Shown: positions 13,290 through 51,052 of the stretch, piece after piece
How positions within the stretch are numbered: the stretch's first letter is position 1
Layout of the letters: each line of letters opens with the position of its first letter
DNA from: Cornus controversa
Lineage: Eukaryota > Streptophyta > Magnoliopsida > Cornales > Cornaceae
Direction of reading: 5' to 3'
Length of the DNA stretch: 64,000 bases
Assembly (NCBI GenBank): GCA_026545225.1
Contig: CM048849.1
Location: 26,732,836 to 26,796,835, forward strand
Translations under genes and position numbers: made by a program
Notes under the pieces: model-generated
What the model saw: only the letters and a program-made list of their open reading frames with translations
Told to the model about the DNA's origin: nothing
The model's database searches: none

Positions 13290-13926
13290 TGATGCAGGAG
13301 CATCCGAGTCAGATGATGCTGAGCTGTCAGATGACACGTTGATGGCACTGAAATATCTTGAGTTGGCAGATCAGCGTAAAGATGGCAGGAAACCGTGACC
13401 TTGTCACTAATTAGGGTATTTTTGGATGCGATTCGGTATTTTGGCCATAACTTTGGCTACAGGTGTCAGAATCGCCTTTATGACCACAATTCGGAAAGCT
13501 TGGTTCGGCGCGCACGTCGTGGGCACCAAGCTAAAGCTGGGTGAGTCTGTTTTCGAGGTCAAAATCCACTGTTTTCCCCTCCGAATCCCTAATTTTAGTT
13601 ATTTCTTTCCTTTTTTGGTAATATTTATTTTGTTGATTAGGAAGTGATTCTGGGCTTGATTTGGGCCAGAATTCTGGCAACTTTCTTCTTTTATTTCGTA
13701 TTTTATTTTGGCAAGAATATTAGGTTTTTGCTATTTTTGGTAATGTTGACGAAGCTTAGCTATATAACCCGGCTTGTGGGTTGATTCGAAGGTACTTTTG
13801 ATTTTGAATAATAATATTGAATACCAGAGACTTTTCTCTGAGTTTTTGGGCAATTCTCGTGCTTTCTTTCTGTTTATTTTCTGTTGCCCTTAGCCTACAG
13901 AATAATCACTATTCTGTCCGGCGTCA
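13290..13926 (+). repeat. LTR 1 (outer 5' LTR)
   Basis: 637 bp, TGATGCAGG...CGGCGTCA. Its first 109 bp (to 13398) are the same as the 3' end of the gag-pol ORF, so it opens with a promoterless coding tail. TATATAA at 13761-13767 is the likely TATA box and AATAATAAT near 13807 a possible poly(A) signal. Looks identical by eye to LTRs 2-7. Confidence 0.95.
13761..13767 (+). promoter_or_regulatory. TATA box in LTR 1
   Basis: TATATAA followed by a GC-rich CCCGGC. About 30 bp downstream would be the U3/R boundary. The same box recurs at +4959 steps in every LTR (18720, 23679, 28638, 33597, 38556, 43515, 48474), so the array has eight co-oriented promoters. Confidence 0.7.
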
Positions 13927-13928
13927 GT

Positions 13929-13940
13929 TGGTATCAGAGC
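13929..13940 (+). promoter_or_regulatory. Primer-binding site, tRNA-iMet type
   Basis: TGGTATCAGAGC, complementary to the 3' end of plant initiator tRNA-Met, starts 2 bp after the LTR end. The same site occurs at 18888, 23847, 28806, 33765, 38724 and 43683, but not after LTR 8, which is followed by host DNA. Confidence 0.93.
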
Positions 13941-13977
13941 TTTCAGCATCTTCCTGGGTGAGATTTCATCAGTTTTC

Positions 13978-16900: not shown

Positions 16901-18357
16901 CATTTGCACTGAGGCACCAAGCAGGGAGTCTGAACCGTGTTGCAGATGCACTAAGCCGTCGTACGTTGCTCCTCACCACCATGAGCACCAGAGTTGCAGG
17001 TTTCGATACATTCTCTGATGTGTATGCTGCAGATCCTTCCTTCGGGAGGATAATTCAGGAGGTAATTGATGGTCAACGCTATGATTATATTTTGCACAAT
17101 GGTTACCTGTTTCGTGGATTAAAGTTGTGCATCCCAGATTGTTCACTAAGGCAACAGATTATTAGTGAACTTCATAACGAGGGTCATTTTGGGCGAGACA
17201 AGACGTTGGGTCTGATCTCTTCTAACTATTATTGGCCCAAGTTGACCAGTGACGTGGCTCATTTTGTGGAGCGTTGTTATGTGTGTCAGCGGTCCAAAGG
17301 AGTTCTCACTAATGCGGGCCTGTACACACCTTTACCGGTTCCTGAAGCTCCTTGGCTTGATGTCAGTATGGACTTTGTGTTGGGCTTACCTCGTACCCAA
17401 CGGGCCGTGGATTCTATTTTGGTTGTGGTCGATCGATTTTCCAAGATGGCCCATTTTGTTGCTTGCAGGAAAACAATGGATGCTGCCCGGGTCGCCCATC
17501 TTTACTTCAAGGAGATTGTGCGTTTACATGGTATTCCCCAATCCATTACCTCAGATCGTGATACCAAGTTCATGAGTCAATTTTGGAAGAGTCTATGGGA
17601 GAAACTGGGAACGAAGTTGAATTTTAGCAGCGCCTACCATCCTCAGACAGATGGTCAGACAGAGGTGGTGAACCGGAGTTTGGGAAACCTTTTGAGGAGT
17701 TTGACAGGAACTAAGCCAAAGCAGTGGGATTTGGCATTACCTCAAGCAGAATTTGCTTATAACAGGTCAAAGAACAGATCAACAGGAATGAGCCCATTTG
17801 AGATTGTCTATGGTCAGAACCCATCTGGGGTGCTTGACTTAGTCCCTATTCCGCGCGTGGGTCGTTTCAATCGTAAGGCAGATGAGATGGCAGAACATCT
17901 TCGAGGTATCCATGAGCAGGTCAAGCTGGCCATTCACGAGAGTAATGCCAAGTACAAGGTTCAGGCTGACAGCCACCGTCGTCAAGTACTTTTTGACGTT
18001 GGTGATTTTGTTTGGGCGGTATTAACTCGTGATCGTTTCCCTGTTGGAGAGTATAACAAGCTAAAGGAGCGAAAGATTGGTCCCTGTGAGATCCTGCAGA
18101 AGATCAATGATAACGCCTACAAACTACGTCTCCCCAGTCATTTGAGGACTTCTGACGTCTTTAATGTGAAACATCTGAGTCCTTGTTTTATGGATTCCGA
18201 TGAGGCTGTTGTAAACTCGAGGACGAGTTCTTTCCAACCCGAGGTGACTGATGCAGGAGCATCCGAGTCAGATGATGCTGAGCTGTCAGATGACACGTTG
18301 ATGGCACTGAAATATCTTGAGTTGGCAGATCAGCGTAAAGATGGCAGGAAACCGTGA
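13978..18357 (+). CDS. Gag-Pol polyprotein, copy 1 (Ty3/gypsy)
   Basis: 1459 codons in one frame. Gag: coiled-coil-like N-terminus (about 24-47), capsid region (about 85-255), CCHC knuckle C291, C294, H299, C304. Acidic linker about 318-345. Protease D389-S-G. RT D675 and YFDD 737-740. RNase H D885, E922, D947. Integrase zinc finger H1066, H1070, C1100, C1103; catalytic D1132, D1193, E1229 (35-residue spacing). GPY/F-type motif near 1366-1386. After that only about 70 residues remain, with no canonical chromodomain. The last 35 codons and the stop lie inside the next LTR. The ATG is 51 bp after LTR 1 and is the first good start. No inactivating change is seen, so it may be active. Confidence 0.95.
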   Translation: MAGGRGRGRRGQVPNEEAPHRDRNVQDLMIEDLQRQVAELTQRLTAQTISDREVEDHESDSSSDNPFHNRARFWGHRGREERHGDLGFRVDLPEFSGTLQAEGFVDWMNEVERIFEYKEVPDRVKVKLVAIKLKGRASAWWEQLRRSRDRQGKAKITDWQKMKKKMKGHFLPFGYIQTLFQRLQSLRQGLRSVDDYTEEFYQLIARNDLSETEEQTVARYLGGLRQPLQDILSLHSLWTVSEAYQRALAVEKQQNRRPVIRSDQNNRPVRPQEPRPVQPTPQGNSHSNIRCFRCGEQGHRANECRKPASQKGKNLLIEEDVVDETEETGEPMYDDDEDEDVLYGDGRENLVIRKSLLTPRGDSGDDWLRTNIFHTTCTVADKVCKMIIDSGSCENVVSEEAVQKLQLKTDRHPNPYKLSWLNKGSEVKVDRRCLVSFSIGKKYFDNAWCDVVAMDACHVLLGRPWQYDRSVTHDGRKNTYSLSIKGKKIVLAPRREGASPTPVAKTTNLLSMSRFLTEIEHRDVVYALLPCGNSATDVNENPDLPTEVQQLLTEFSDLMPEDLPPGLPPMRDIQHQIDLVPGSSLPNRPAYRLSPKESEELQRQVVELLERGYIRESMSPCAVPALLVPKKDGSWRMCVDSRAINRITVKYRFPIPRLDDMLDQLSGSKVFSKIDLKSGYHQIRIRPGDEWKTAFKTQHGLYEWMVMPFGLSNAPSTFMRFMHQVLRPFMGKFVVVYFDDILIYSPTWMSHFDHLRAVFDMLRTEHLFVNQKKCAFFTTSVTFLGFVVSTDGVHADPSKIDAVLEWPKPKTLHDVRSFHGLASFYRRFIRNFSTLIAPVTECLKGRDFHWSEEAEASFHLVKQKMTEAPVLALPDFEKVFEVNCDASGVGIGGVLSQEGRPIAFFSEKLSGSKNNYSTYDLEFYAIIQSLKHWRHYLIQREFILLTDHEALKYINGQHKLSRRHAKWVAYLQEFTFALRHQAGSLNRVADALSRRTLLLTTMSTRVAGFDTFSDVYAADPSFGRIIQEVIDGQRYDYILHNGYLFRGLKLCIPDCSLRQQIISELHNEGHFGRDKTLGLISSNYYWPKLTSDVAHFVERCYVCQRSKGVLTNAGLYTPLPVPEAPWLDVSMDFVLGLPRTQRAVDSILVVVDRFSKMAHFVACRKTMDAARVAHLYFKEIVRLHGIPQSITSDRDTKFMSQFWKSLWEKLGTKLNFSSAYHPQTDGQTEVVNRSLGNLLRSLTGTKPKQWDLALPQAEFAYNRSKNRSTGMSPFEIVYGQNPSGVLDLVPIPRVGRFNRKADEMAEHLRGIHEQVKLAIHESNAKYKVQADSHRRQVLFDVGDFVWAVLTRDRFPVGEYNKLKERKIGPCEILQKINDNAYKLRLPSHLRTSDVFNVKHLSPCFMDSDEAVVNSRTSSFQPEVTDAGASESDDAELSDDTLMALKYLELADQRKDGRKP

Positions 18358-18885
18358 CCTTGTCACTAATTAGGGTATTTTTGGATGCGATTCGGTATTT
18401 TGGCCATAACTTTGGCTACAGGTGTCAGAATCGCCTTTATGACCACAATTCGGAAAGCTTGGTTCGGCGCGCACGTCGTGGGCACCAAGCTAAAGCTGGG
18501 TGAGTCTGTTTTCGAGGTCAAAATCCACTGTTTTCCCCTCCGAATCCCTAATTTTAGTTATTTCTTTCCTTTTTTGGTAATATTTATTTTGTTGATTAGG
18601 AAGTGATTCTGGGCTTGATTTGGGCCAGAATTCTGGCAACTTTCTTCTTTTATTTCGTATTTTATTTTGGCAAGAATATTAGGTTTTTGCTATTTTTGGT
18701 AATGTTGACGAAGCTTAGCTATATAACCCGGCTTGTGGGTTGATTCGAAGGTACTTTTGATTTTGAATAATAATATTGAATACCAGAGACTTTTCTCTGA
18801 GTTTTTGGGCAATTCTCGTGCTTTCTTTCTGTTTATTTTCTGTTGCCCTTAGCCTACAGAATAATCACTATTCTGTCCGGCGTCA
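18249..18885 (+). repeat. LTR 2 (shared, internal)
   Basis: Serves as 3' LTR of copy 1 and 5' LTR of copy 2. No host sequence or target duplication at either side. The upstream purine tract is poor: GAGGTGAC directly precedes TGATG, with AACTCGAGGACGAG about 20 bp further up. Confidence 0.95.
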
Positions 18886-18936
18886 GTTGGTATCAGAGCT
18901 TTCAGCATCTTCCTGGGTGAGATTTCATCAGTTTTC

Positions 18937-21900
18937 ATGGCTGGTGGTCGTGGTCGTGGTCGTCGTGGGCAGGTTCCGAACGAGGAAGCCCCACACCGTG
19001 ATCGTAATGTTCAGGATTTGATGATCGAGGATTTACAGAGGCAAGTTGCAGAGTTAACCCAGCGTCTAACGGCGCAGACTATCAGTGACCGTGAGGTGGA
19101 AGATCACGAATCTGATTCCAGTTCCGACAACCCGTTTCACAATCGTGCTCGATTCTGGGGGCACCGTGGTCGGGAGGAACGTCATGGAGACCTCGGTTTC
19201 AGAGTGGATCTGCCCGAGTTTTCGGGTACGTTACAGGCCGAAGGATTTGTCGATTGGATGAACGAAGTGGAGCGTATCTTTGAATATAAAGAAGTCCCAG
19301 ATCGTGTCAAGGTGAAACTGGTCGCCATCAAACTCAAAGGCAGAGCCTCTGCATGGTGGGAGCAGTTGAGGCGATCACGAGACAGGCAGGGCAAGGCCAA
19401 GATCACTGATTGGCAGAAGATGAAGAAGAAGATGAAGGGTCACTTCCTTCCTTTCGGCTACATTCAAACCCTGTTTCAGCGACTTCAATCGTTGAGGCAA
19501 GGATTGAGATCGGTTGATGATTACACAGAGGAGTTCTATCAATTGATAGCCCGGAATGATTTATCTGAGACAGAAGAGCAGACGGTGGCGCGGTATTTGG
19601 GAGGATTGCGGCAGCCCCTGCAAGATATCCTCAGCCTTCACTCGCTTTGGACTGTTTCTGAAGCATACCAACGCGCACTTGCTGTGGAAAAGCAGCAGAA
19701 TCGGAGGCCAGTGATCAGGAGCGATCAAAATAATCGGCCAGTTCGACCTCAAGAACCCCGTCCTGTCCAGCCGACACCACAGGGTAATTCTCACTCGAAT
19801 ATTAGATGTTTCAGATGTGGTGAACAGGGACACAGAGCGAATGAGTGCAGGAAGCCTGCTAGTCAGAAGGGTAAAAATCTCCTGATTGAGGAAGACGTGG
19901 TAGACGAAACTGAGGAGACTGGAGAGCCTATGTATGACGATGATGAAGATGAAGATGTGCTGTATGGAGATGGCCGTGAGAATCTGGTCATTCGTAAAAG
20001 TCTACTGACTCCCAGGGGCGATTCAGGGGATGATTGGTTGAGAACCAATATTTTTCACACGACTTGTACAGTTGCAGATAAAGTCTGCAAGATGATCATT
20101 GACAGTGGCAGTTGTGAGAACGTAGTGTCTGAAGAGGCTGTCCAGAAATTGCAGTTGAAGACAGATCGTCATCCCAACCCGTACAAATTGTCATGGCTGA
20201 ATAAAGGCAGTGAGGTAAAGGTGGATAGGAGATGCCTAGTGTCTTTCTCGATTGGCAAGAAATATTTTGATAATGCTTGGTGTGATGTTGTGGCTATGGA
20301 TGCTTGTCATGTACTGTTAGGCAGACCTTGGCAGTATGATCGCAGTGTTACTCATGACGGACGAAAGAACACATATTCCCTTAGCATCAAGGGGAAGAAG
20401 ATTGTGTTGGCTCCTCGTCGGGAAGGAGCCAGTCCTACCCCGGTAGCCAAAACTACTAACCTGCTTTCTATGTCCAGGTTTTTAACTGAGATTGAGCATA
20501 GGGACGTGGTCTATGCTCTGCTGCCTTGTGGGAATAGCGCAACCGACGTGAACGAGAATCCAGACTTACCAACAGAGGTGCAGCAACTGCTAACAGAGTT
20601 TTCTGACCTGATGCCAGAGGATCTTCCTCCGGGGCTACCGCCTATGAGGGATATTCAGCATCAGATTGACCTTGTTCCGGGGTCCAGTTTGCCTAATCGA
20701 CCGGCGTATCGCCTCAGTCCCAAGGAATCTGAGGAGTTGCAGCGGCAAGTAGTAGAGTTGCTGGAGAGGGGCTACATCCGTGAGAGTATGAGCCCATGTG
20801 CAGTTCCTGCTCTGTTAGTGCCGAAGAAGGATGGCTCTTGGCGTATGTGTGTTGATAGCCGAGCAATCAACAGGATTACAGTGAAGTACAGGTTTCCAAT
20901 TCCCCATCTGGATGATATGTTAGACCAGTTATCCGGTTCCAAGGTCTTCTCAAAAATTGACCTTAAAAGCGGTTACCACCAGATCAGAATAAGGCCTGGG
21001 GATGAGTGGAAGACAGCGTTTAAGACGCAACATGGGTTGTATGAGTGGATGGTCATGCCTTTTGGGCTGTCCAATGCGCCCAGCACATTTATGAGGTTTA
21101 TGCATCAGGTTTTACGGCCTTTTATGGGGAAATTCGTCGTAGTTTACTTCGATGACATCCTCATCTATAGCCCGACATGGATGTCACATTTTGATCACCT
21201 CCGTGCTGTCTTTGATATGTTGAGGACAGAGCACCTGTTCGTCAATCAGAAGAAGTGTGCTTTCTTCACTACTTCTGTAACTTTTCTGGGTTTTGTGGTG
21301 TCCACTGATGGTGTTCATGCAGATCCGTCGAAGATAGACGCGGTTTTGGAGTGGCCCAAACCGAAAACCTTACACGATGTTCGAAGTTTTCATGGATTGG
21401 CATCTTTCTACCGTCGGTTCATCAGAAACTTCAGCACTCTGATTGCTCCAGTCACAGAGTGCCTTAAGGGACGTGATTTCCATTGGTCCGAGGAGGCAGA
21501 GGCCAGTTTTCATCTGGTCAAGCAGAAGATGACAGAGGCACCAGTTTTGGCACTTCCCGACTTTGAGAAGGTGTTTGAGGTAAACTGTGATGCATCTGGG
21601 GTGGGCATTGGTGGTGTTCTGAGTCAGGAGGGGCGTCCAATAGCTTTTTTCAGTGAGAAGCTATCAGGATCGAAGAACAATTATTCCACCTATGATCTGG
21701 AGTTTTATGCCATCATTCAGTCCCTAAAGCATTGGCGTCACTACCTAATACAGAGGGAATTCATTCTCCTCACTGATCATGAGGCTTTGAAATACATCAA
21801 TGGCCAGCACAAGCTGAGTAGACGGCATGCCAAGTGGGTGGCATACTTGCAAGAGTTCACATTTGCACTGAGGCACCAAGCAGGGAGTCTGAACCGTGTT

Positions 21901-23316
21901 GCAGATGCACTAAGCCGTCGTACGTTGCTCCTCACCACCATGAGCACCAGAGTTGCAGGTTTCGATACATTCTCTGATGTGTATGCTGCAGATCCTTCCT
22001 TCGGGAGGATAATTCAGGAGGTAATTGATGGTCAACGCTATGATTATATTTTGCACAATGGTTACCTGTTTCGTGGATTAAAGTTGTGCATCCCAGATTG
22101 TTCACTAAGGCAACAGATTATTAGTGAACTTCATAACGAGGGTCATTTTGGGCGAGACAAGACGTTGGGTCTGATCTCTTCTAACTATTATTGGCCCAAG
22201 TTGACCAGTGACGTGGCTCATTTTGTGGAGCGTTGTTATGTGTGTCAGCGGTCCAAAGGAGTTCTCACTAATGCGGGCCTGTACACACCTTTACCGGTTC
22301 CTGAAGCTCCTTGGCTTGATGTCAGTATGGACTTTGTGTTGGGCTTACCTCGTACCCAACGGGCCGTGGATTCTATTTTGGTTGTGGTCGATCGATTTTC
22401 CAAGATGGCCCATTTTGTTGCTTGCAGGAAAACAATGGATGCTGCCCGGGTCGCCCATCTTTACTTCAAGGAGATTGTGCGTTTACATGGTATTCCCCAA
22501 TCCATTACCTCAGATCGTGATACCAAGTTCATGAGTCAATTTTGGAAGAGTCTATGGGAGAAACTGGGAACGAAGTTGAATTTTAGCAGCGCCTACCATC
22601 CTCAGACAGATGGTCAGACAGAGGTGGTGAACCGGAGTTTGGGAAACCTTTTGAGGAGTTTGACAGGAACTAAGCCAAAGCAGTGGGATTTGGCATTACC
22701 TCAAGCAGAATTTGCTTATAACAGGTCAAAGAACAGATCAACAGGAATGAGCCCATTTGAGATTGTCTATGGTCAGAACCCATCTGGGGTGCTTGACTTA
22801 GTCCCTATTCCGCGCGTGGGTCGTTTCAATCGTAAGGCAGATGAGATGGCAGAACATCTTCGAGGTATCCATGAGCAGGTCAAGCTGGCCATTCACGAGA
22901 GTAATGCCAAGTACAAGGTTCAGGCTGACAGCCACCGTCGTCAAGTACTTTTTGACGTTGGTGATTTTGTTTGGGCGGTATTAACTCGTGATCGTTTCCC
23001 TGTTGGAGAGTATAACAAGCTAAAGGAGCGAAAGATTGGTCCCTGTGAGATCCTGCAGAAGATCAATGATAACGCCTACAAACTACGTCTCCCCAGTCAT
23101 TTGAGGACTTCTGACGTCTTTAATGTGAAACATCTGAGTCCTTGTTTTATGGATTCCGATGAGGCTGTTGTAAACTCGAGGACGAGTTCTTTCCAACCCG
23201 AGGTGACTGATGCAGGAGCATCCGAGTCAGATGATGCTGAGCTGTCAGATGACACGTTGATGGCACTGAAATATCTTGAGTTGGCAGATCAGCGTAAAGA
23301 TGGCAGGAAACCGTGA
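18937..23316 (+). CDS. Gag-Pol polyprotein, copy 2, with one private Arg-to-His change
   Basis: Same 1459-codon ORF and domain set as copy 1. The one protein difference in the whole array is here: base 20906 is A where other copies have G, giving His for Arg at residue 657 (PIPHLDD in place of PIPRLDD) at the start of the RT palm region. The position is near the conserved core but is not a catalytic Asp. The change marks this copy for PCR or read-based tests of the array. Ends inside LTR 3. Confidence 0.95.
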   Translation: MAGGRGRGRRGQVPNEEAPHRDRNVQDLMIEDLQRQVAELTQRLTAQTISDREVEDHESDSSSDNPFHNRARFWGHRGREERHGDLGFRVDLPEFSGTLQAEGFVDWMNEVERIFEYKEVPDRVKVKLVAIKLKGRASAWWEQLRRSRDRQGKAKITDWQKMKKKMKGHFLPFGYIQTLFQRLQSLRQGLRSVDDYTEEFYQLIARNDLSETEEQTVARYLGGLRQPLQDILSLHSLWTVSEAYQRALAVEKQQNRRPVIRSDQNNRPVRPQEPRPVQPTPQGNSHSNIRCFRCGEQGHRANECRKPASQKGKNLLIEEDVVDETEETGEPMYDDDEDEDVLYGDGRENLVIRKSLLTPRGDSGDDWLRTNIFHTTCTVADKVCKMIIDSGSCENVVSEEAVQKLQLKTDRHPNPYKLSWLNKGSEVKVDRRCLVSFSIGKKYFDNAWCDVVAMDACHVLLGRPWQYDRSVTHDGRKNTYSLSIKGKKIVLAPRREGASPTPVAKTTNLLSMSRFLTEIEHRDVVYALLPCGNSATDVNENPDLPTEVQQLLTEFSDLMPEDLPPGLPPMRDIQHQIDLVPGSSLPNRPAYRLSPKESEELQRQVVELLERGYIRESMSPCAVPALLVPKKDGSWRMCVDSRAINRITVKYRFPIPHLDDMLDQLSGSKVFSKIDLKSGYHQIRIRPGDEWKTAFKTQHGLYEWMVMPFGLSNAPSTFMRFMHQVLRPFMGKFVVVYFDDILIYSPTWMSHFDHLRAVFDMLRTEHLFVNQKKCAFFTTSVTFLGFVVSTDGVHADPSKIDAVLEWPKPKTLHDVRSFHGLASFYRRFIRNFSTLIAPVTECLKGRDFHWSEEAEASFHLVKQKMTEAPVLALPDFEKVFEVNCDASGVGIGGVLSQEGRPIAFFSEKLSGSKNNYSTYDLEFYAIIQSLKHWRHYLIQREFILLTDHEALKYINGQHKLSRRHAKWVAYLQEFTFALRHQAGSLNRVADALSRRTLLLTTMSTRVAGFDTFSDVYAADPSFGRIIQEVIDGQRYDYILHNGYLFRGLKLCIPDCSLRQQIISELHNEGHFGRDKTLGLISSNYYWPKLTSDVAHFVERCYVCQRSKGVLTNAGLYTPLPVPEAPWLDVSMDFVLGLPRTQRAVDSILVVVDRFSKMAHFVACRKTMDAARVAHLYFKEIVRLHGIPQSITSDRDTKFMSQFWKSLWEKLGTKLNFSSAYHPQTDGQTEVVNRSLGNLLRSLTGTKPKQWDLALPQAEFAYNRSKNRSTGMSPFEIVYGQNPSGVLDLVPIPRVGRFNRKADEMAEHLRGIHEQVKLAIHESNAKYKVQADSHRRQVLFDVGDFVWAVLTRDRFPVGEYNKLKERKIGPCEILQKINDNAYKLRLPSHLRTSDVFNVKHLSPCFMDSDEAVVNSRTSSFQPEVTDAGASESDDAELSDDTLMALKYLELADQRKDGRKP

Positions 23317-23844
23317 CCTTGTCACTAATTAGGGTATTTTTGGATGCGATTCGGTATTTTGGCCATAACTTTGGCTACAGGTGTCAGAATCGCCTTTATG
23401 ACCACAATTCGGAAAGCTTGGTTCGGCGCGCACGTCGTGGGCACCAAGCTAAAGCTGGGTGAGTCTGTTTTCGAGGTCAAAATCCACTGTTTTCCCCTCC
23501 GAATCCCTAATTTTAGTTATTTCTTTCCTTTTTTGGTAATATTTATTTTGTTGATTAGGAAGTGATTCTGGGCTTGATTTGGGCCAGAATTCTGGCAACT
23601 TTCTTCTTTTATTTCGTATTTTATTTTGGCAAGAATATTAGGTTTTTGCTATTTTTGGTAATGTTGACGAAGCTTAGCTATATAACCCGGCTTGTGGGTT
23701 GATTCGAAGGTACTTTTGATTTTGAATAATAATATTGAATACCAGAGACTTTTCTCTGAGTTTTTGGGCAATTCTCGTGCTTTCTTTCTGTTTATTTTCT
23801 GTTGCCCTTAGCCTACAGAATAATCACTATTCTGTCCGGCGTCA
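23208..23844 (+). repeat. LTR 3 (shared, internal)
   Basis: Same ends and length as LTR 1. TATA box at 23679 and primer site for copy 3 at 23847. Confidence 0.95.
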
Positions 23845-23895
23845 GTTGGTATCAGAGCTTTCAGCATCTTCCTGGGTGAGATTTCATCAGTTTTC

Positions 23896-28803: not shown

Positions 28804-28854
28804 GTTGGTATCAGAGCTTTCAGCATCTTCCTGGGTGAGATTTCATCAGTTTTC

Positions 28855-33234: not shown

Positions 33235-33762
33235 CCTTGTCACTAATTAGGGTATTTTTGGATGCGATTCGGTATTTTGGCCATAACTTTGGCTACAGGT
33301 GTCAGAATCGCCTTTATGACCACAATTCGGAAAGCTTGGTTCGGCGCGCACGTCGTGGGCACCAAGCTAAAGCTGGGTGAGTCTGTTTTCGAGGTCAAAA
33401 TCCACTGTTTTCCCCTCCGAATCCCTAATTTTAGTTATTTCTTTCCTTTTTTGGTAATATTTATTTTGTTGATTAGGAAGTGATTCTGGGCTTGATTTGG
33501 GCCAGAATTCTGGCAACTTTCTTCTTTTATTTCGTATTTTATTTTGGCAAGAATATTAGGTTTTTGCTATTTTTGGTAATGTTGACGAAGCTTAGCTATA
33601 TAACCCGGCTTGTGGGTTGATTCGAAGGTACTTTTGATTTTGAATAATAATATTGAATACCAGAGACTTTTCTCTGAGTTTTTGGGCAATTCTCGTGCTT
33701 TCTTTCTGTTTATTTTCTGTTGCCCTTAGCCTACAGAATAATCACTATTCTGTCCGGCGTCA
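33126..33762 (+). repeat. LTR 5 (shared, internal)
   Basis: Same ends and length as LTR 1. TATA box at 33597 and primer site for copy 5 at 33765. Confidence 0.95.
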
Positions 33763-33813
33763 GTTGGTATCAGAGCTTTCAGCATCTTCCTGGGTGAGAT
33801 TTCATCAGTTTTC

Positions 33814-38193: not shown

Positions 38194-38721
38194 CCTTGTC
38201 ACTAATTAGGGTATTTTTGGATGCGATTCGGTATTTTGGCCATAACTTTGGCTACAGGTGTCAGAATCGCCTTTATGACCACAATTCGGAAAGCTTGGTT
38301 CGGCGCGCACGTCGTGGGCACCAAGCTAAAGCTGGGTGAGTCTGTTTTCGAGGTCAAAATCCACTGTTTTCCCCTCCGAATCCCTAATTTTAGTTATTTC
38401 TTTCCTTTTTTGGTAATATTTATTTTGTTGATTAGGAAGTGATTCTGGGCTTGATTTGGGCCAGAATTCTGGCAACTTTCTTCTTTTATTTCGTATTTTA
38501 TTTTGGCAAGAATATTAGGTTTTTGCTATTTTTGGTAATGTTGACGAAGCTTAGCTATATAACCCGGCTTGTGGGTTGATTCGAAGGTACTTTTGATTTT
38601 GAATAATAATATTGAATACCAGAGACTTTTCTCTGAGTTTTTGGGCAATTCTCGTGCTTTCTTTCTGTTTATTTTCTGTTGCCCTTAGCCTACAGAATAA
38701 TCACTATTCTGTCCGGCGTCA
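38085..38721 (+). repeat. LTR 6 (shared, internal)
   Basis: Same ends and length as LTR 1. TATA box at 38556 and primer site for copy 6 at 38724. Confidence 0.95.
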
Positions 38722-38772
38722 GTTGGTATCAGAGCTTTCAGCATCTTCCTGGGTGAGATTTCATCAGTTTTC

Positions 38773-41700
38773 ATGGCTGGTGGTCGTGGTCGTGGTCGTC
38801 GTGGGCAGGTTCCGAACGAGGAAGCCCCACACCGTGATCGTAATGTTCAGGATTTGATGATCGAGGATTTACAGAGGCAAGTTGCAGAGTTAACCCAGCG
38901 TCTAACGGCGCAGACTATCAGTGACCGTGAGGTGGAAGATCACGAATCTGATTCCAGTTCCGACAACCCGTTTCACAATCGTGCTCGATTCTGGGGGCAC
39001 CGTGGTCGGGAGGAACGTCATGGAGACCTCGGTTTCAGAGTGGATCTGCCCGAGTTTTCGGGTACGTTACAGGCCGAAGGATTTGTCGATTGGATGAACG
39101 AAGTGGAGCGTATCTTTGAATATAAAGAAGTCCCAGATCGTGTCAAGGTGAAACTGGTCGCCATCAAACTCAAAGGCAGAGCCTCTGCATGGTGGGAGCA
39201 GTTGAGGCGATCACGAGACAGGCAGGGCAAGGCCAAGATCACTGATTGGCAGAAGATGAAGAAGAAGATGAAGGGTCACTTCCTTCCTTTCGGCTACATT
39301 CAAACCCTGTTTCAGCGACTTCAATCGTTGAGGCAAGGATTGAGATCGGTTGATGATTACACAGAGGAGTTCTATCAATTGATAGCCCGGAATGATTTAT
39401 CTGAGACAGAAGAGCAGACGGTGGCGCGGTATTTGGGAGGATTGCGGCAGCCCCTGCAAGATATCCTCAGCCTTCACTCGCTTTGGACTGTTTCTGAAGC
39501 ATACCAACGCGCACTTGCTGTGGAAAAGCAGCAGAATCGGAGGCCAGTGATCAGGAGCGATCAAAATAATCGGCCAGTTCGACCTCAAGAACCCCGTCCT
39601 GTCCAGCCGACACCACAGGGTAATTCTCACTCGAATATTAGATGTTTCAGATGTGGTGAACAGGGACACAGAGCGAATGAGTGCAGGAAGCCTGCTAGTC
39701 AGAAGGGTAAAAATCTCCTGATTGAGGAAGACGTGGTAGACGAAACTGAGGAGACTGGAGAGCCTATGTATGACGATGATGAAGATGAAGATGTGCTGTA
39801 TGGAGATGGCCGTGAGAATCTGGTCATTCGTAAAAGTCTACTGACTCCCAGGGGCGATTCAGGGGATGATTGGTTGAGAACCAATATTTTTCACACGACT
39901 TGTACAGTTGCAGATAAAGTCTGCAAGATGATCATTGACAGTGGCAGTTGTGAGAACGTAGTGTCTGAAGAGGCTGTCCAGAAATTGCAGTTGAAGACAG
40001 ATCGTCATCCCAACCCGTACAAATTGTCATGGCTGAATAAAGGCAGTGAGGTAAAGGTGGATAGGAGATGCCTAGTGTCTTTCTCGATTGGCAAGAAATA
40101 TTTTGATAATGCTTGGTGTGATGTTGTGGCTATGGATGCTTGTCATGTACTGTTAGGCAGACCTTGGCAGTATGATCGCAGTGTTACTCATGACGGACGA
40201 AAGAACACATATTCCCTTAGCATCAAGGGGAAGAAGATTGTGTTGGCTCCTCGTCGGGAAGGAGCCAGTCCTACCCCGGTAGCCAAAACTACTAACCTGC
40301 TTTCTATGTCCAGGTTTTTAACTGAGATTGAGCATAGGGACGTGGTCTATGCTCTGCTGCCTTGTGGGAATAGCGCAACCGACGTGAACGAGAATCCAGA
40401 CTTACCAACAGAGGTGCAGCAACTGCTAACAGAGTTTTCTGACCTGATGCCAGAGGATCTTCCTCCGGGGCTACCGCCTATGAGGGATATTCAGCATCAG
40501 ATTGACCTTGTTCCGGGGTCCAGTTTGCCTAATCGACCGGCGTATCGCCTCAGTCCCAAGGAATCTGAGGAGTTGCAGCGGCAAGTAGTAGAGTTGCTGG
40601 AGAGGGGCTACATCCGTGAGAGTATGAGCCCATGTGCAGTTCCTGCTCTGTTAGTGCCGAAGAAGGATGGCTCTTGGCGTATGTGTGTTGATAGCCGAGC
40701 AATCAACAGGATTACAGTGAAGTACAGGTTTCCAATTCCCCGTCTGGATGATATGTTAGACCAGTTATCCGGTTCCAAGGTCTTCTCAAAAATTGACCTT
40801 AAAAGCGGTTACCACCAGATCAGAATAAGGCCTGGGGATGAGTGGAAGACAGCGTTTAAGACGCAACATGGGTTGTATGAGTGGATGGTCATGCCTTTTG
40901 GGCTGTCCAATGCGCCCAGCACATTTATGAGGTTTATGCATCAGGTTTTACGGCCTTTTATGGGGAAATTCGTCGTAGTTTACTTCGATGACATCCTCAT
41001 CTATAGCCCGACATGGATGTCACATTTTGATCACCTCCGTGCTGTCTTTGATATGTTGAGGACAGAGCACCTGTTCGTCAATCAGAAGAAGTGTGCTTTC
41101 TTCACTACTTCTGTAACTTTTCTGGGTTTTGTGGTGTCCACTGATGGTGTTCATGCAGATCCGTCGAAGATAGACGCGGTTTTGGAGTGGCCCAAACCGA
41201 AAACCTTACACGATGTTCGAAGTTTTCATGGATTGGCATCTTTCTACCGTCGGTTCATCAGAAACTTCAGCACTCTGATTGCTCCAGTCACAGAGTGCCT
41301 TAAGGGACGTGATTTCCATTGGTCCGAGGAGGCAGAGGCCAGTTTTCATCTGGTCAAGCAGAAGATGACAGAGGCACCAGTTTTGGCACTTCCCGACTTT
41401 GAGAAGGTGTTTGAGGTAAACTGTGATGCATCTGGGGTGGGCATTGGTGGTGTTCTGAGTCAGGAGGGGCGTCCAATAGCTTTTTTCAGTGAGAAGCTAT
41501 CAGGATCGAAGAACAATTATTCCACCTATGATCTGGAGTTTTATGCCATCATTCAGTCCCTAAAGCATTGGCGTCACTACCTAATACAGAGGGAATTCAT
41601 TCTCCTCACTGATCATGAGGCTTTGAAATACATCAATGGCCAGCACAAGCTGAGTAGACGGCATGCCAAGTGGGTGGCATACTTGCAAGAGTTCACATTT

Positions 41701-43152
41701 GCACTGAGGCACCAAGCAGGGAGTCTGAACCGTGTTGCAGATGCACTAAGCCGTCGTACGTTGCTCCTCACCACCATGAGCACCAGAGTTGCAGGTTTCG
41801 ATACATTCTCTGATGTGTATGCTGCAGATCCTTCCTTCGGGAGGATAATTCAGGAGGTAATTGATGGTCAACGCTATGATTATATTTTGCACAATGGTTA
41901 CCTGTTTCGTGGATTAAAGTTGTGCATCCCAGATTGTTCACTAAGGCAACAGATTATTAGTGAACTTCATAACGAGGGTCATTTTGGGCGAGACAAGACG
42001 TTGGGTCTGATCTCTTCTAACTATTATTGGCCCAAGTTGACCAGTGACGTGGCTCATTTTGTGGAGCGTTGTTATGTGTGTCAGCGGTCCAAAGGAGTTC
42101 TCACTAATGCGGGCCTGTACACACCTTTACCGGTTCCTGAAGCTCCTTGGCTTGATGTCAGTATGGACTTTGTGTTGGGCTTACCTCGTACCCAACGGGC
42201 CGTGGATTCTATTTTGGTTGTGGTCGATCGATTTTCCAAGATGGCCCATTTTGTTGCTTGCAGGAAAACAATGGATGCTGCCCGGGTCGCCCATCTTTAC
42301 TTCAAGGAGATTGTGCGTTTACATGGTATTCCCCAATCCATTACCTCAGATCGTGATACCAAGTTCATGAGTCAATTTTGGAAGAGTCTATGGGAGAAAC
42401 TGGGAACGAAGTTGAATTTTAGCAGCGCCTACCATCCTCAGACAGATGGTCAGACAGAGGTGGTGAACCGGAGTTTGGGAAACCTTTTGAGGAGTTTGAC
42501 AGGAACTAAGCCAAAGCAGTGGGATTTGGCATTACCTCAAGCAGAATTTGCTTATAACAGGTCAAAGAACAGATCAACAGGAATGAGCCCATTTGAGATT
42601 GTCTATGGTCAGAACCCATCTGGGGTGCTTGACTTAGTCCCTATTCCGCGCGTGGGTCGTTTCAATCGTAAGGCAGATGAGATGGCAGAACATCTTCGAG
42701 GTATCCATGAGCAGGTCAAGCTGGCCATTCACGAGAGTAATGCCAAGTACAAGGTTCAGGCTGACAGCCACCGTCGTCAAGTACTTTTTGACGTTGGTGA
42801 TTTTGTTTGGGCGGTATTAACTCGTGATCGTTTCCCTGTTGGAGAGTATAACAAGCTAAAGGAGCGAAAGATTGGTCCCTGTGAGATCCTGCAGAAGATC
42901 AATGATAACGCCTACAAACTACGTCTCCCCAGTCATTTGAGGACTTCTGACGTCTTTAATGTGAAACATCTGAGTCCTTGTTTTATGGATTCCGATGAGG
43001 CTGTTGTAAACTCGAGGACGAGTTCTTTCCAACCCGAGGTGACTGATGCAGGAGCATCCGAGTCAGATGATGCTGAGCTGTCAGATGACACGTTGATGGC
43101 ACTGAAATATCTTGAGTTGGCAGATCAGCGTAAAGATGGCAGGAAACCGTGA
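38773..43152 (+). CDS. Gag-Pol polyprotein, copy 6
   Basis: Protein identical to copy 1, with C at the silent gag site (39051). No private change was noticed. Ends inside LTR 7. Confidence 0.95.
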   Translation: MAGGRGRGRRGQVPNEEAPHRDRNVQDLMIEDLQRQVAELTQRLTAQTISDREVEDHESDSSSDNPFHNRARFWGHRGREERHGDLGFRVDLPEFSGTLQAEGFVDWMNEVERIFEYKEVPDRVKVKLVAIKLKGRASAWWEQLRRSRDRQGKAKITDWQKMKKKMKGHFLPFGYIQTLFQRLQSLRQGLRSVDDYTEEFYQLIARNDLSETEEQTVARYLGGLRQPLQDILSLHSLWTVSEAYQRALAVEKQQNRRPVIRSDQNNRPVRPQEPRPVQPTPQGNSHSNIRCFRCGEQGHRANECRKPASQKGKNLLIEEDVVDETEETGEPMYDDDEDEDVLYGDGRENLVIRKSLLTPRGDSGDDWLRTNIFHTTCTVADKVCKMIIDSGSCENVVSEEAVQKLQLKTDRHPNPYKLSWLNKGSEVKVDRRCLVSFSIGKKYFDNAWCDVVAMDACHVLLGRPWQYDRSVTHDGRKNTYSLSIKGKKIVLAPRREGASPTPVAKTTNLLSMSRFLTEIEHRDVVYALLPCGNSATDVNENPDLPTEVQQLLTEFSDLMPEDLPPGLPPMRDIQHQIDLVPGSSLPNRPAYRLSPKESEELQRQVVELLERGYIRESMSPCAVPALLVPKKDGSWRMCVDSRAINRITVKYRFPIPRLDDMLDQLSGSKVFSKIDLKSGYHQIRIRPGDEWKTAFKTQHGLYEWMVMPFGLSNAPSTFMRFMHQVLRPFMGKFVVVYFDDILIYSPTWMSHFDHLRAVFDMLRTEHLFVNQKKCAFFTTSVTFLGFVVSTDGVHADPSKIDAVLEWPKPKTLHDVRSFHGLASFYRRFIRNFSTLIAPVTECLKGRDFHWSEEAEASFHLVKQKMTEAPVLALPDFEKVFEVNCDASGVGIGGVLSQEGRPIAFFSEKLSGSKNNYSTYDLEFYAIIQSLKHWRHYLIQREFILLTDHEALKYINGQHKLSRRHAKWVAYLQEFTFALRHQAGSLNRVADALSRRTLLLTTMSTRVAGFDTFSDVYAADPSFGRIIQEVIDGQRYDYILHNGYLFRGLKLCIPDCSLRQQIISELHNEGHFGRDKTLGLISSNYYWPKLTSDVAHFVERCYVCQRSKGVLTNAGLYTPLPVPEAPWLDVSMDFVLGLPRTQRAVDSILVVVDRFSKMAHFVACRKTMDAARVAHLYFKEIVRLHGIPQSITSDRDTKFMSQFWKSLWEKLGTKLNFSSAYHPQTDGQTEVVNRSLGNLLRSLTGTKPKQWDLALPQAEFAYNRSKNRSTGMSPFEIVYGQNPSGVLDLVPIPRVGRFNRKADEMAEHLRGIHEQVKLAIHESNAKYKVQADSHRRQVLFDVGDFVWAVLTRDRFPVGEYNKLKERKIGPCEILQKINDNAYKLRLPSHLRTSDVFNVKHLSPCFMDSDEAVVNSRTSSFQPEVTDAGASESDDAELSDDTLMALKYLELADQRKDGRKP

Positions 43153-43680
43153 CCTTGTCACTAATTAGGGTATTTTTGGATGCGATTCGGTATTTTGGCC
43201 ATAACTTTGGCTACAGGTGTCAGAATCGCCTTTATGACCACAATTCGGAAAGCTTGGTTCGGCGCGCACGTCGTGGGCACCAAGCTAAAGCTGGGTGAGT
43301 CTGTTTTCGAGGTCAAAATCCACTGTTTTCCCCTCCGAATCCCTAATTTTAGTTATTTCTTTCCTTTTTTGGTAATATTTATTTTGTTGATTAGGAAGTG
43401 ATTCTGGGCTTGATTTGGGCCAGAATTCTGGCAACTTTCTTCTTTTATTTCGTATTTTATTTTGGCAAGAATATTAGGTTTTTGCTATTTTTGGTAATGT
43501 TGACGAAGCTTAGCTATATAACCCGGCTTGTGGGTTGATTCGAAGGTACTTTTGATTTTGAATAATAATATTGAATACCAGAGACTTTTCTCTGAGTTTT
43601 TGGGCAATTCTCGTGCTTTCTTTCTGTTTATTTTCTGTTGCCCTTAGCCTACAGAATAATCACTATTCTGTCCGGCGTCA
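43044..43680 (+). repeat. LTR 7 (shared, internal)
   Basis: Same ends and length as LTR 1. TATA box at 43515 and primer site for copy 7 at 43683. Confidence 0.95.
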
Positions 43681-43731
43681 GTTGGTATCAGAGCTTTCAG
43701 CATCTTCCTGGGTGAGATTTCATCAGTTTTC

Positions 43732-46700
43732 ATGGCTGGTGGTCGTGGTCGTGGTCGTCGTGGGCAGGTTCCGAACGAGGAAGCCCCACACCGTGATCGT
43801 AATGTTCAGGATTTGATGATCGAGGATTTACAGAGGCAAGTTGCAGAGTTAACCCAGCGTCTAACGGCGCAGACTATCAGTGACCGTGAGGTGGAAGATC
43901 ACGAATCTGATTCCAGTTCCGACAACCCGTTTCACAATCGTGCTCGATTCTGGGGGCACCGTGGTCGGGAGGAACGTCATGGAGACCTCGGTTTCAGAGT
44001 GGATCTGCCCGAGTTTTCGGGTACGTTACAGGCCGAAGGATTTGTCGATTGGATGAACGAAGTGGAGCGTATCTTTGAATATAAAGAAGTCCCAGATCGT
44101 GTCAAGGTGAAACTGGTCGCCATCAAACTCAAAGGCAGAGCCTCTGCATGGTGGGAGCAGTTGAGGCGATCACGAGACAGGCAGGGCAAGGCCAAGATCA
44201 CTGATTGGCAGAAGATGAAGAAGAAGATGAAGGGTCACTTCCTTCCTTTCGGCTACATTCAAACCCTGTTTCAGCGACTTCAATCGTTGAGGCAAGGATT
44301 GAGATCGGTTGATGATTACACAGAGGAGTTCTATCAATTGATAGCCCGGAATGATTTATCTGAGACAGAAGAGCAGACGGTGGCGCGGTATTTGGGAGGA
44401 TTGCGGCAGCCCCTGCAAGATATCCTCAGCCTTCACTCGCTTTGGACTGTTTCTGAAGCATACCAACGCGCACTTGCTGTGGAAAAGCAGCAGAATCGGA
44501 GGCCAGTGATCAGGAGCGATCAAAATAATCGGCCAGTTCGACCTCAAGAACCCCGTCCTGTCCAGCCGACACCACAGGGTAATTCTCACTCGAATATTAG
44601 ATGTTTCAGATGTGGTGAACAGGGACACAGAGCGAATGAGTGCAGGAAGCCTGCTAGTCAGAAGGGTAAAAATCTCCTGATTGAGGAAGACGTGGTAGAC
44701 GAAACTGAGGAGACTGGAGAGCCTATGTATGACGATGATGAAGATGAAGATGTGCTGTATGGAGATGGCCGTGAGAATCTGGTCATTCGTAAAAGTCTAC
44801 TGACTCCCAGGGGCGATTCAGGGGATGATTGGTTGAGAACCAATATTTTTCACACGACTTGTACAGTTGCAGATAAAGTCTGCAAGATGATCATTGACAG
44901 TGGCAGTTGTGAGAACGTAGTGTCTGAAGAGGCTGTCCAGAAATTGCAGTTGAAGACAGATCGTCATCCCAACCCGTACAAATTGTCATGGCTGAATAAA
45001 GGCAGTGAGGTAAAGGTGGATAGGAGATGCCTAGTGTCTTTCTCGATTGGCAAGAAATATTTTGATAATGCTTGGTGTGATGTTGTGGCTATGGATGCTT
45101 GTCATGTACTGTTAGGCAGACCTTGGCAGTATGATCGCAGTGTTACTCATGACGGACGAAAGAACACATATTCCCTTAGCATCAAGGGGAAGAAGATTGT
45201 GTTGGCTCCTCGTCGGGAAGGAGCCAGTCCTACCCCGGTAGCCAAAACTACTAACCTGCTTTCTATGTCCAGGTTTTTAACTGAGATTGAGCATAGGGAC
45301 GTGGTCTATGCTCTGCTGCCTTGTGGGAATAGCGCAACCGACGTGAACGAGAATCCAGACTTACCAACAGAGGTGCAGCAACTGCTAACAGAGTTTTCTG
45401 ACCTGATGCCAGAGGATCTTCCTCCGGGGCTACCGCCTATGAGGGATATTCAGCATCAGATTGACCTTGTTCCGGGGTCCAGTTTGCCTAATCGACCGGC
45501 GTATCGCCTCAGTCCCAAGGAATCTGAGGAGTTGCAGCGGCAAGTAGTAGAGTTGCTGGAGAGGGGCTACATCCGTGAGAGTATGAGCCCATGTGCAGTT
45601 CCTGCTCTGTTAGTGCCGAAGAAGGATGGCTCTTGGCGTATGTGTGTTGATAGCCGAGCAATCAACAGGATTACAGTGAAGTACAGGTTTCCAATTCCCC
45701 GTCTGGATGATATGTTAGACCAGTTATCCGGTTCCAAGGTCTTCTCAAAAATTGACCTTAAAAGCGGTTACCACCAGATCAGAATAAGGCCTGGGGATGA
45801 GTGGAAGACAGCGTTTAAGACGCAACATGGGTTGTATGAGTGGATGGTCATGCCTTTTGGGCTGTCCAATGCGCCCAGCACATTTATGAGGTTTATGCAT
45901 CAGGTTTTACGGCCTTTTATGGGGAAATTCGTCGTAGTTTACTTCGATGACATCCTCATCTATAGCCCGACATGGATGTCACATTTTGATCACCTCCGTG
46001 CTGTCTTTGATATGTTGAGGACAGAGCACCTGTTCGTCAATCAGAAGAAGTGTGCTTTCTTCACTACTTCTGTAACTTTTCTGGGTTTTGTGGTGTCCAC
46101 TGATGGTGTTCATGCAGATCCGTCGAAGATAGACGCGGTTTTGGAGTGGCCCAAACCGAAAACCTTACACGATGTTCGAAGTTTTCATGGATTGGCATCT
46201 TTCTACCGTCGGTTCATCAGAAACTTCAGCACTCTGATTGCTCCAGTCACAGAGTGCCTTAAGGGACGTGATTTCCATTGGTCCGAGGAGGCAGAGGCCA
46301 GTTTTCATCTGGTCAAGCAGAAGATGACAGAGGCACCAGTTTTGGCACTTCCCGACTTTGAGAAGGTGTTTGAGGTAAACTGTGATGCATCTGGGGTGGG
46401 CATTGGTGGTGTTCTGAGTCAGGAGGGGCGTCCAATAGCTTTTTTCAGTGAGAAGCTATCAGGATCGAAGAACAATTATTCCACCTATGATCTGGAGTTT
46501 TATGCCATCATTCAGTCCCTAAAGCATTGGCGTCACTACCTAATACAGAGGGAATTCATTCTCCTCACTGATCATGAGGCTTTGAAATACATCAATGGCC
46601 AGCACAAGCTGAGTAGACGGCATGCCAAGTGGGTGGCATACTTGCAAGAGTTCACATTTGCACTGAGGCACCAAGCAGGGAGTCTGAACCGTGTTGCAGA

Positions 46701-48111
46701 TGCACTAAGCCGTCGTACGTTGCTCCTCACCACCATGAGCACCAGAGTTGCAGGTTTCGATACATTCTCTGATGTGTATGCTGCAGATCCTTCCTTCGGG
46801 AGGATAATTCAGGAGGTAATTGATGGTCAACGCTATGATTATATTTTGCACAATGGTTACCTGTTTCGTGGATTAAAGTTGTGCATCCCAGATTGTTCAC
46901 TAAGGCAACAGATTATTAGTGAACTTCATAACGAGGGTCATTTTGGGCGAGACAAGACGTTGGGTCTGATCTCTTCTAACTATTATTGGCCCAAGTTGAC
47001 CAGTGACGTGGCTCATTTTGTGGAGCGTTGTTATGTGTGTCAGCGGTCCAAAGGAGTTCTCACTAATGCGGGCCTGTACACACCTTTACCGGTTCCTGAA
47101 GCTCCTTGGCTTGATGTCAGTATGGACTTTGTGTTGGGCTTACCTCGTACCCAACGGGCCGTGGATTCTATTTTGGTTGTGGTCGATCGATTTTCCAAGA
47201 TGGCCCATTTTGTTGCTTGCAGGAAAACAATGGATGCTGCCCGGGTCGCCCATCTTTACTTCAAGGAGATTGTGCGTTTACATGGTATTCCCCAATCCAT
47301 TACCTCAGATCGTGATACCAAGTTCATGAGTCAATTTTGGAAGAGTCTATGGGAGAAACTGGGAACGAAGTTGAATTTTAGCAGCGCCTACCATCCTCAG
47401 ACAGATGGTCAGACAGAGGTGGTGAACCGGAGTTTGGGAAACCTTTTGAGGAGTTTGACAGGAACTAAGCCAAAGCAGTGGGATTTGGCATTACCTCAAG
47501 CAGAATTTGCTTATAACAGGTCAAAGAACAGATCAACAGGAATGAGCCCATTTGAGATTGTCTATGGTCAGAACCCATCTGGGGTGCTTGACTTAGTCCC
47601 TATTCCGCGCGTGGGTCGTTTCAATCGTAAGGCAGATGAGATGGCAGAACATCTTCGAGGTATCCATGAGCAGGTCAAGCTGGCCATTCACGAGAGTAAT
47701 GCCAAGTACAAGGTTCAGGCTGACAGCCACCGTCGTCAAGTACTTTTTGACGTTGGTGATTTTGTTTGGGCGGTATTAACTCGTGATCGTTTCCCTGTTG
47801 GAGAGTATAACAAGCTAAAGGAGCGAAAGATTGGTCCCTGTGAGATCCTGCAGAAGATCAATGATAACGCCTACAAACTACGTCTCCCCAGTCATTTGAG
47901 GACTTCTGACGTCTTTAATGTGAAACATCTGAGTCCTTGTTTTATGGATTCCGATGAGGCTGTTGTAAACTCGAGGACGAGTTCTTTCCAACCCGAGGTG
48001 ACTGATGCAGGAGCATCCGAGTCAGATGATGCTGAGCTGTCAGATGACACGTTGATGGCACTGAAATATCTTGAGTTGGCAGATCAGCGTAAAGATGGCA
48101 GGAAACCGTGA
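43732..48111 (+). CDS. Gag-Pol polyprotein, copy 7
   Basis: Protein identical to copy 1, with C at the silent gag site (44010). The ORF finishes within the outer LTR 8, which keeps the coding tail intact. Last unit before host DNA. Confidence 0.95.
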   Translation: MAGGRGRGRRGQVPNEEAPHRDRNVQDLMIEDLQRQVAELTQRLTAQTISDREVEDHESDSSSDNPFHNRARFWGHRGREERHGDLGFRVDLPEFSGTLQAEGFVDWMNEVERIFEYKEVPDRVKVKLVAIKLKGRASAWWEQLRRSRDRQGKAKITDWQKMKKKMKGHFLPFGYIQTLFQRLQSLRQGLRSVDDYTEEFYQLIARNDLSETEEQTVARYLGGLRQPLQDILSLHSLWTVSEAYQRALAVEKQQNRRPVIRSDQNNRPVRPQEPRPVQPTPQGNSHSNIRCFRCGEQGHRANECRKPASQKGKNLLIEEDVVDETEETGEPMYDDDEDEDVLYGDGRENLVIRKSLLTPRGDSGDDWLRTNIFHTTCTVADKVCKMIIDSGSCENVVSEEAVQKLQLKTDRHPNPYKLSWLNKGSEVKVDRRCLVSFSIGKKYFDNAWCDVVAMDACHVLLGRPWQYDRSVTHDGRKNTYSLSIKGKKIVLAPRREGASPTPVAKTTNLLSMSRFLTEIEHRDVVYALLPCGNSATDVNENPDLPTEVQQLLTEFSDLMPEDLPPGLPPMRDIQHQIDLVPGSSLPNRPAYRLSPKESEELQRQVVELLERGYIRESMSPCAVPALLVPKKDGSWRMCVDSRAINRITVKYRFPIPRLDDMLDQLSGSKVFSKIDLKSGYHQIRIRPGDEWKTAFKTQHGLYEWMVMPFGLSNAPSTFMRFMHQVLRPFMGKFVVVYFDDILIYSPTWMSHFDHLRAVFDMLRTEHLFVNQKKCAFFTTSVTFLGFVVSTDGVHADPSKIDAVLEWPKPKTLHDVRSFHGLASFYRRFIRNFSTLIAPVTECLKGRDFHWSEEAEASFHLVKQKMTEAPVLALPDFEKVFEVNCDASGVGIGGVLSQEGRPIAFFSEKLSGSKNNYSTYDLEFYAIIQSLKHWRHYLIQREFILLTDHEALKYINGQHKLSRRHAKWVAYLQEFTFALRHQAGSLNRVADALSRRTLLLTTMSTRVAGFDTFSDVYAADPSFGRIIQEVIDGQRYDYILHNGYLFRGLKLCIPDCSLRQQIISELHNEGHFGRDKTLGLISSNYYWPKLTSDVAHFVERCYVCQRSKGVLTNAGLYTPLPVPEAPWLDVSMDFVLGLPRTQRAVDSILVVVDRFSKMAHFVACRKTMDAARVAHLYFKEIVRLHGIPQSITSDRDTKFMSQFWKSLWEKLGTKLNFSSAYHPQTDGQTEVVNRSLGNLLRSLTGTKPKQWDLALPQAEFAYNRSKNRSTGMSPFEIVYGQNPSGVLDLVPIPRVGRFNRKADEMAEHLRGIHEQVKLAIHESNAKYKVQADSHRRQVLFDVGDFVWAVLTRDRFPVGEYNKLKERKIGPCEILQKINDNAYKLRLPSHLRTSDVFNVKHLSPCFMDSDEAVVNSRTSSFQPEVTDAGASESDDAELSDDTLMALKYLELADQRKDGRKP

Positions 48112-48639
48112 CCTTGTCACTAATTAGGGTATTTTTGGATGCGATTCGGTATTTTGGCCATAACTTTGGTTACAGGTGTCAGAATCGCCTTTATGACCAC
48201 AATTCGGAAAGCTTGGTTCGGCGCGCACGTCGTGGGCACCTAGCTAAAGCTGGGTGAGTCTGTTTTCGAGGTCAAAATCCACTGTTTTCCCCTCCGAATC
48301 CCTAATTTTAGTTATTTCTTTCCTTTTTTGGTAATATTTATTTTGTTGATTAGGAAGTGATTCTGGGCTTGATTTGGGCCAGAATTCTGGCAACTTTCTT
48401 CTTTTATTTCGTATTTTATTTTGGCAAGAATATTAGGTTTTTGCTATTTTTGGTAATGTTGACGAAGCTTAGCTATATAACCCGGCTTGTGGGTTGATTC
48501 GAAGGTACTTTTGATTTTGAATAATAATATTGAATACCAGAGACTTTTCTCTGAGTTTTTGGGCAATTCTCGTGCTTTCTTTCTGTTTATTTTCTGTTGC
48601 CCTTAGCCTACAGAATAATCACTATTCTGTCCGGCGTCA
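48003..48639 (+). repeat. LTR 8 (outer 3' LTR), with two private substitutions
   Basis: Same 637-bp length but differs from LTR 1 at two sites: T for C at 48170 (LTR position 168) and T for A at 48241 (position 239). I see no other difference by eye. It is followed by GCATG and host sequence, not by a primer site. Confidence 0.95.
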
Positions 48640-51043: not shown

Positions 51044-51052
51044 ATATAATTA

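Follow-up and report, generated by a model that had tools for sequence, protein, structure and literature searches.

The window analysed here, a stretch of 64,000 bp from Cornus controversa (C5:26732836-26796835 of a 771.7-Mb assembly in 61 contigs), contains a block of tandem Ty3/gypsy long terminal repeat (LTR) retrotransposons, hereafter the heptamer, at positions 13290-48639 (Table 1). Comparison of the window with itself indicated one strong period of 4959 bp, with an identity of 0.999-1.000 per 1-kb bin between 14 and 43 kb, and of 0.22-0.32 per bin at the same offset outside the block. The block measures exactly 7 x 4959 + 637 bp, and its eight LTRs and seven internal regions show no length change. 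LTRs and internal regions alternate, neighbouring units share an LTR and an LTR stands at either end, as is typical of a tandem array; each LTR begins with TGATG and ends with GTCA, the TG...CA termini expected for Ty3/gypsy. All seven units (7/7) carry an open gag-pol frame of 1459 aa, the 3′ end of which lies 109 bp inside the next LTR, and the whole block has four variable columns. The limits, the intact open reading frames and the scarcity of substitutions described in the initial annotation were thus all reproduced. As assembled, the heptamer is a real and recent tandem array, and its family forms five or more others.

Table 1. Coordinates of the heptamer and its insertion site (window positions) and of the other arrays of the family (assembly positions). 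TSD, target-site duplication.
Feature	Position	Strand	Remark
TSD GCATG, left copy	13285..13289	.	
LTR1, 5′ terminal	13290..13926	+	A at LTR position 239
Unit 1 gag-pol, 1459 aa	13978..18357	+	final 109 bp within LTR2
LTR2, shared	18249..18885	+	
Unit 2 gag-pol	18937..23316	+	Arg657His via change at 20906
LTR3, shared	23208..23844	+	
Unit 3 gag-pol	23896..28275	+	synonymous T at 24174
LTR4, shared	28167..28803	+	
Unit 4 gag-pol	28855..33234	+	
LTR5, shared	33126..33762	+	
Unit 5 gag-pol	33814..38193	+	synonymous T at 34092 (as unit 3)
LTR6, shared	38085..38721	+	
Unit 6 gag-pol	38773..43152	+	
LTR7, shared	43044..43680	+	
Unit 7 gag-pol	43732..48111	+	
LTR8, 3′ terminal	48003..48639	+	T at LTR positions 168 (48170) and 239 (48241)
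TSD GCATG, right copy	48640..48644	.	
Empty site, paralogous flank copy B	58273..58277	.	one GCATG
2-unit array	C9:9.46 Mb		TSD AGAGG
3-unit array	C5:55.62 Mb		TSD CTAAC
4-unit array	C6:37.78 Mb		TSD CAAGG; five identical LTRs
13-unit array	C5:16.41-16.48 Mb (16.412-16.477)		final LTR cut at position 213
~94-unit array	C2:38,426,823-38,651,647		224,825 bp; GAAAA on either side

GCATG occurs once on each side of the block, and the flanking DNA has a paralogue (copy B), which left of the insertion site is identical in 781 of 871 columns to the array's own flank (copy A), keeps one GCATG without the element. Because of this single pair and the empty paralogous site, one integration event, not seven, made the target-site duplication (TSD), as had been proposed from the GCATG copies and the empty site; nested or independent insertions are ruled out on the same grounds. 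Two of the four variable columns lie in the LTR and both separate LTR8 from LTR1-7: position 239 (A/T) is A in LTR1-7 and T in LTR8, and position 168 (C/T) is T in LTR8. The other two lie inside the units, where column 967 reads C C T C T C C from unit 1 to unit 7 (a synonymous change to T, at a CpG) and column 2658 is A in unit 2 only (Arg657His, also at a CpG).

The polarity of the LTR markers was obtained from relatives of the element. In the LTR query 40 of 1609 candidates were scored, so that family counts are lower bounds, and the comparison covered 30 of these 40, eight of them in the window and 22 in the closest relatives. Within this set, A239 is confined to LTR1-7 of the window and T168 is private to LTR8; in the relatives, position 239 is T in 22/22 and T168 is found in 0/22. 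Because A239 is absent from all 22 LTRs, these give no sign of progeny of the array. Both LTRs were fetched at seven single-copy loci, where the pair is identical in every case and matching 5-bp TSDs are present at six, the exception lying on C1; the family evidently has young members. Two solo LTRs of the same family, at C2:50908578 (flanked by ATATA) and C1:109889912 (GAATC), have matching 5-bp flanks, and such solo LTRs are a product expected of LTR-LTR exchange. Terminal LTRs are normally identical at integration, both U3 copies being made from one template. With A239 in LTR1-7 and T in LTR8 and in all 22 relatives, the simplest account is a mutation in the 5′ LTR followed by its duplication, and the marker argues strongly, if not conclusively, that the resident 5′ LTR changed from T to A at position 239 and was then copied by unequal exchange.

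The seven internal regions were also compared with 10 others from eight loci. The plain unit differs from these 10 at 1-10 columns in 4322 bp, no column is private to the array, and 967T and 2658A are absent from 10/10 of them; the heptamer units differ from one another at no more than two internal sites. Because no internal column is private to the array, its units must descend from one recent copy, the array having probably been built soon after insertion. The patterns at columns 967 and 2658 can be produced by two mutations if a two-unit block was duplicated, and take three if single units only were duplicated.

The at least six arrays that this family forms in the assembly, the only family for which arrays were counted, have 2, 3, 4, 7, 13 and ~94 units. 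A 23-mer over the LTR start matches exactly at 222 forward and 92 reverse positions (100 of the 314 listed), and a 31-mer spanning the LTR end and the primer site does so at 106; among the 100 of these that are listed, 29 fall in five arrays and 71 lack array spacing. A single 5-bp TSD surrounds the heptamer and four of the five other arrays, the fifth being the 13-unit array with its truncated last LTR, and the periods differ among arrays (4959, 4956, ~4960, ~4932 and 4958). The three internal regions of the array at C5:55.62 Mb are identical and have a common broken frame. A dimer candidate at C1:51.86 Mb was left out of the count, because at its expected outer edge the LTR is matched over no more than 14 bp, by chance, and the remaining two LTRs are old. 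That a single family spans this range of unit numbers favours amplification after insertion.

The largest array, on C2, combines two unit types. Its 71 listed junctions give 70 spacings, namely 17 of 4958 bp, 43 of 1775, eight of 1781, one of 1773 and one of 3550, which indicates 18 full-length units by spacing (the first unit included) and 76 short ones fitting the remaining length; the figure of ~94 units thus comes from spacing and arithmetic, with which the short samples read, from 38.62-38.652 Mb, agree. In a short unit the LTR is followed by the internal region up to about position 1699, joined to its last 80-90 bp. Three neighbouring short units differ at 4-8 sites, and the sampled pieces have 96-98% identity to the window unit. 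In the listed part, long and short units are arranged in blocks, with 13 long units followed by 2 short and 5 long ones, and short units thereafter. To our knowledge, no cDNA reaches 224,825 bp. Because 225 kb within one 5-bp duplication exceeds any single cDNA, the C2 array most probably grew in place after insertion, and its length implies that the family can amplify in this way.

The 13-unit array on C5, with a spacing of ~4932 bp and one of 4944, has LTR-specific changes that pile up at one edge: counted from the 5′ edge over its 13 full LTRs, they number 4,3,2,1,0,1,0,0,0,0,1,0,0, where 204A is scored once despite its presence in two LTRs and A239 is excluded. Nine of the 12 changes lie in the first three LTRs (binomial p 0.0002, for a grouping chosen post hoc); one of the 12, 78T, recurs in the truncated last LTR. 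In addition, 204A alternates, as it is found in LTRs L081 and L083 and is absent from L082 between them. Homogenisation by unequal exchange would be expected to leave such an edge pile-up and alternating marker.

Collectively, these results make it likely, with a probability of about 0.75, that one insertion was followed by unequal sister-chromatid exchange, an early step in the birth of a satellite. A Ty3/gypsy element would have inserted once and generated the GCATG duplication, and a mutation or reverse-transcription error would have changed position 239 of its 5′ LTR from T to A, as the relatives suggest. Sister chromatids would then have misaligned, LTR8 with LTR1, so that a crossover left of position 239 duplicated an LTR1-internal unit, and more unequal exchanges would have led to seven units, at least one of which copied two units together (3-4 to 5-6) and would explain why units 3 and 5 share T967. 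Sibling insertions may have gone through the same process to give the arrays of 2, 3, 4, 13 and ~94 units, with an internally deleted unit amplified as well in the largest, and its outcome would be a young macrosatellite of retrotransposon units with co-oriented LTRs. The heptamer is explained like the other arrays because of its family resemblance and its own LTR marker; we infer the exchange between sister chromatids, the order of events and the presence of seven units in the living plant. Repeated unequal exchange between LTRs after one insertion was among the explanations offered by the initial annotation, and it is the one best supported, by the polarity of A239, the internal regions and the C2 and C5 arrays. 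On balance, it also seems that this recently active coding family repeatedly seeds macrosatellites, in which single insertions, most of them marked by 5-bp duplications, expand from 2 to 3, 4, 7, 13 and ~94 units and a shortened unit dominates the largest.

Several observations weigh against this account. Position 239 is A in two of the 13 readable LTRs of the C5 13-unit array and T in 11, on C9 all three LTRs of the array have it deleted, as has the sole C2 LTR compared, and an old C1 locus has C in one LTR and T in the other; in the C6 array it is T in 5/5 LTRs. With A, T, C and a deletion seen across these copies, this site can change repeatedly, and because it varies in older copies, it is possible that the source element already had A239 and that LTR8 changed back. 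Both differences between LTR1 and LTR8 lie in the LTRs and none is fixed inside, a slightly unexpected pattern if ages are equal (p 0.05), and after position 239 was polarised the excess of changes in LTR8 was not significant (p 0.05-0.07). The sister-chromatid exchange itself was unobserved. An LTR8 change excess of p 0.002-0.006 and a simulation disfavouring a concatemer were dropped, since the change at 239 is not an LTR8 change.

Other explanations were weighed against unequal exchange. An expansion or contraction in the assembly, by which the plant's unit number would differ from the assembled one, is unlikely. The longest stretch free of distinguishing sites measures 14,078 bp, so that shorter reads cannot settle the unit number, and consensus steps may have smoothed unit differences; however, unit-specific changes are retained in units 2, 3 and 5, LTR8 is distinct, the arrays differ in period, and five of the six have matching 5-bp duplications at their ends. 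Somewhat less likely still is a preformed multimer, the concatemer of the initial annotation, in which cDNAs of one molecule recombined, or a one-LTR circle was rolled out, and a seven-unit linear molecule integrated once. The single TSD and the near identity of the units would fit such an event. Reverse transcription of a tandem RNA should yield identical terminal LTRs, whereas LTR1 and LTR8 differ at positions 239 and 168; moreover, ~35 kb would far exceed one element length, and such a multimer cannot produce the 225-kb array of the same family within a single TSD. This explanation is disfavoured by the differing terminal LTRs and the 225-kb array, even though, in the accessible parts of the sources, yeast lacking Sgs1 is reported to transpose Ty1 multimers (PMC4378997) and circles and tandem insertions are reviewed (PMC12786077).

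It is very improbable that fresh cDNA or family circles recombined into a resident LTR without integrase. This pathway is among those reviewed for tandem insertions in the accessible text of PMC12786077, and the siblings closely resemble the plain unit (1-10 differences in 4322 bp). However, a circle from the closest relatives would import T239, while LTR2-7 are all A, and the heptamer units differ at two internal sites at most.

For the coding content, the domain profile scan covered unit 1, in which matches to gag, Ty3 capsid, zinc knuckle, aspartic protease, reverse transcriptase, RNase H and integrase were found, and no Pfam chromodomain match at E 0.001. The single frame thus has the gag-protease-reverse transcriptase-RNase H-integrase order of Ty3/gypsy elements, to which the 5-bp TSD and the TG...CA LTRs also conform. 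A primer-site candidate, TGGTATCAGAGC, stands two bases past LTR1 and is presumably a match to initiator tRNA-Met. The initial annotation had spoken of seven potentially active copies, a potential that is read from the seven open frames. The family is Ty3/gypsy, chromovirus-like and perhaps CRM. In the accessible text of PMC3059260, CRM LTRs have the termini TGATG...CATCA and a length of 299-1225 bp, elements are 5.1-10.2 kb with a 5-bp TSD, and in CRM group A the coding region extends into the 3′ LTR (PMC3059260), and 22% of CRM elements are given as lacking a chromodomain in that of PMC6317226. In the heptamer the 5′ TGATG, the 5-bp TSD and the lengths of LTR and element agree, the 3′ CGTCA is one base away from CATCA, and the frame shows the group A overlap by stopping 109 bp within the next LTR. 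CRM membership would further be marked by a CR motif at the integrase C terminus (group A) and by a place within the CRM clade in an RT/IN phylogeny. The fit to CRM is partial, and the family was not filed there.

The flanks contain exons of a CASP-like gene (Casparian strip membrane protein domain) at 12526-12894 (-) in copy A and 57483-57851 (-) in copy B. A first exon of copy B lies near 60886-61077 (-), with its splice end inferred, and none was found for copy A in the minus-strand frames of 48640-55801, which reach about 7 kb past the right end of the array. From the positions of the CASP-like exons on either side, the empty site looks like part of an apparent first intron of copy B. In copy A the heptamer sits upstream of the CASP-like exon, at a point where copy B has its apparent first intron. 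Elsewhere in the window, the plus strand at 336-3398 and 3707-5029 carries an integrase and a reverse transcriptase of copia type in two separate frames, and also a 440-aa frame that matches Pfam Transposase_32; no relative of the 3707-5029 frame was found at E 0.001 among 6150 candidates, and an Rfam search gave no matches. Among the 120 proteins listed for each query, the named ones of highest identity came from Hibiscus (87%) and Olea (82%) for the integrase end, and from Cornus (85% over 80% of the query) and Rhododendron (76%) for the copia piece.

Plant satellites derived from retrotransposons, such as the kilobase-scale centromere satellites of potato, consist of tandem monomers of retrotransposon origin. 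Monomers of the potato type are fragments, whereas the heptamer keeps whole coding elements together with the insertion footprint, and it may be satellite DNA caught in the making. If so, a single genome shows several stages of satellite birth next to each other while the insertion that founded them can still be read, and a series from single element to satellite would allow rates, crossover positions and the change to a shorter unit to be measured. In the literature searched, which mostly excluded subscription journals, neither an array of at least seven units of a coding LTR retrotransposon nor a one-family series of this kind was met, which is no proof of novelty. Among described systems, and as far as the accessible texts go, Cassandra TRIM arrays resemble the heptamer in being long, near-identical and LTR-sharing, with up to 12 repeats, but Cassandra is short and non-coding whereas the heptamer units are 5 kb with open gag-pol; the abbreviation TSD does not occur in the accessible text of that paper (PMC7215508). 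The LTR-IN-LTR-IN-LTR elements of Arabidopsis and maize share a middle LTR as the heptamer does, with 10 three-LTR elements and four with more than three LTRs reported for A. thaliana in the accessible text (PMC5379124). Tandem LTR retrotransposons are also in print for rice, Arabidopsis, almond and cotton (Morales-Diaz et al. 2025, PMC11899658), and with at least six arrays of 2 to ~94 units in its own family the heptamer is less unusual than the initial annotation held. According to the accessible text of that study, those elements, mostly gypsy and described as single insertions, likewise alternate internal regions with shared LTRs within one TSD, and their unit number varies among haplotypes; the two loci detailed there have two internal regions and its main text gives no case of seven or more units, in contrast to the 2-to-94 series found here. 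Its authors leave open, in the same text, whether recombination or complex insertion is responsible (PMC11899658); in Cornus controversa, the 225-kb array within one TSD and the marker present in seven of the eight LTRs of the heptamer favour amplification after insertion over a complex insertion.

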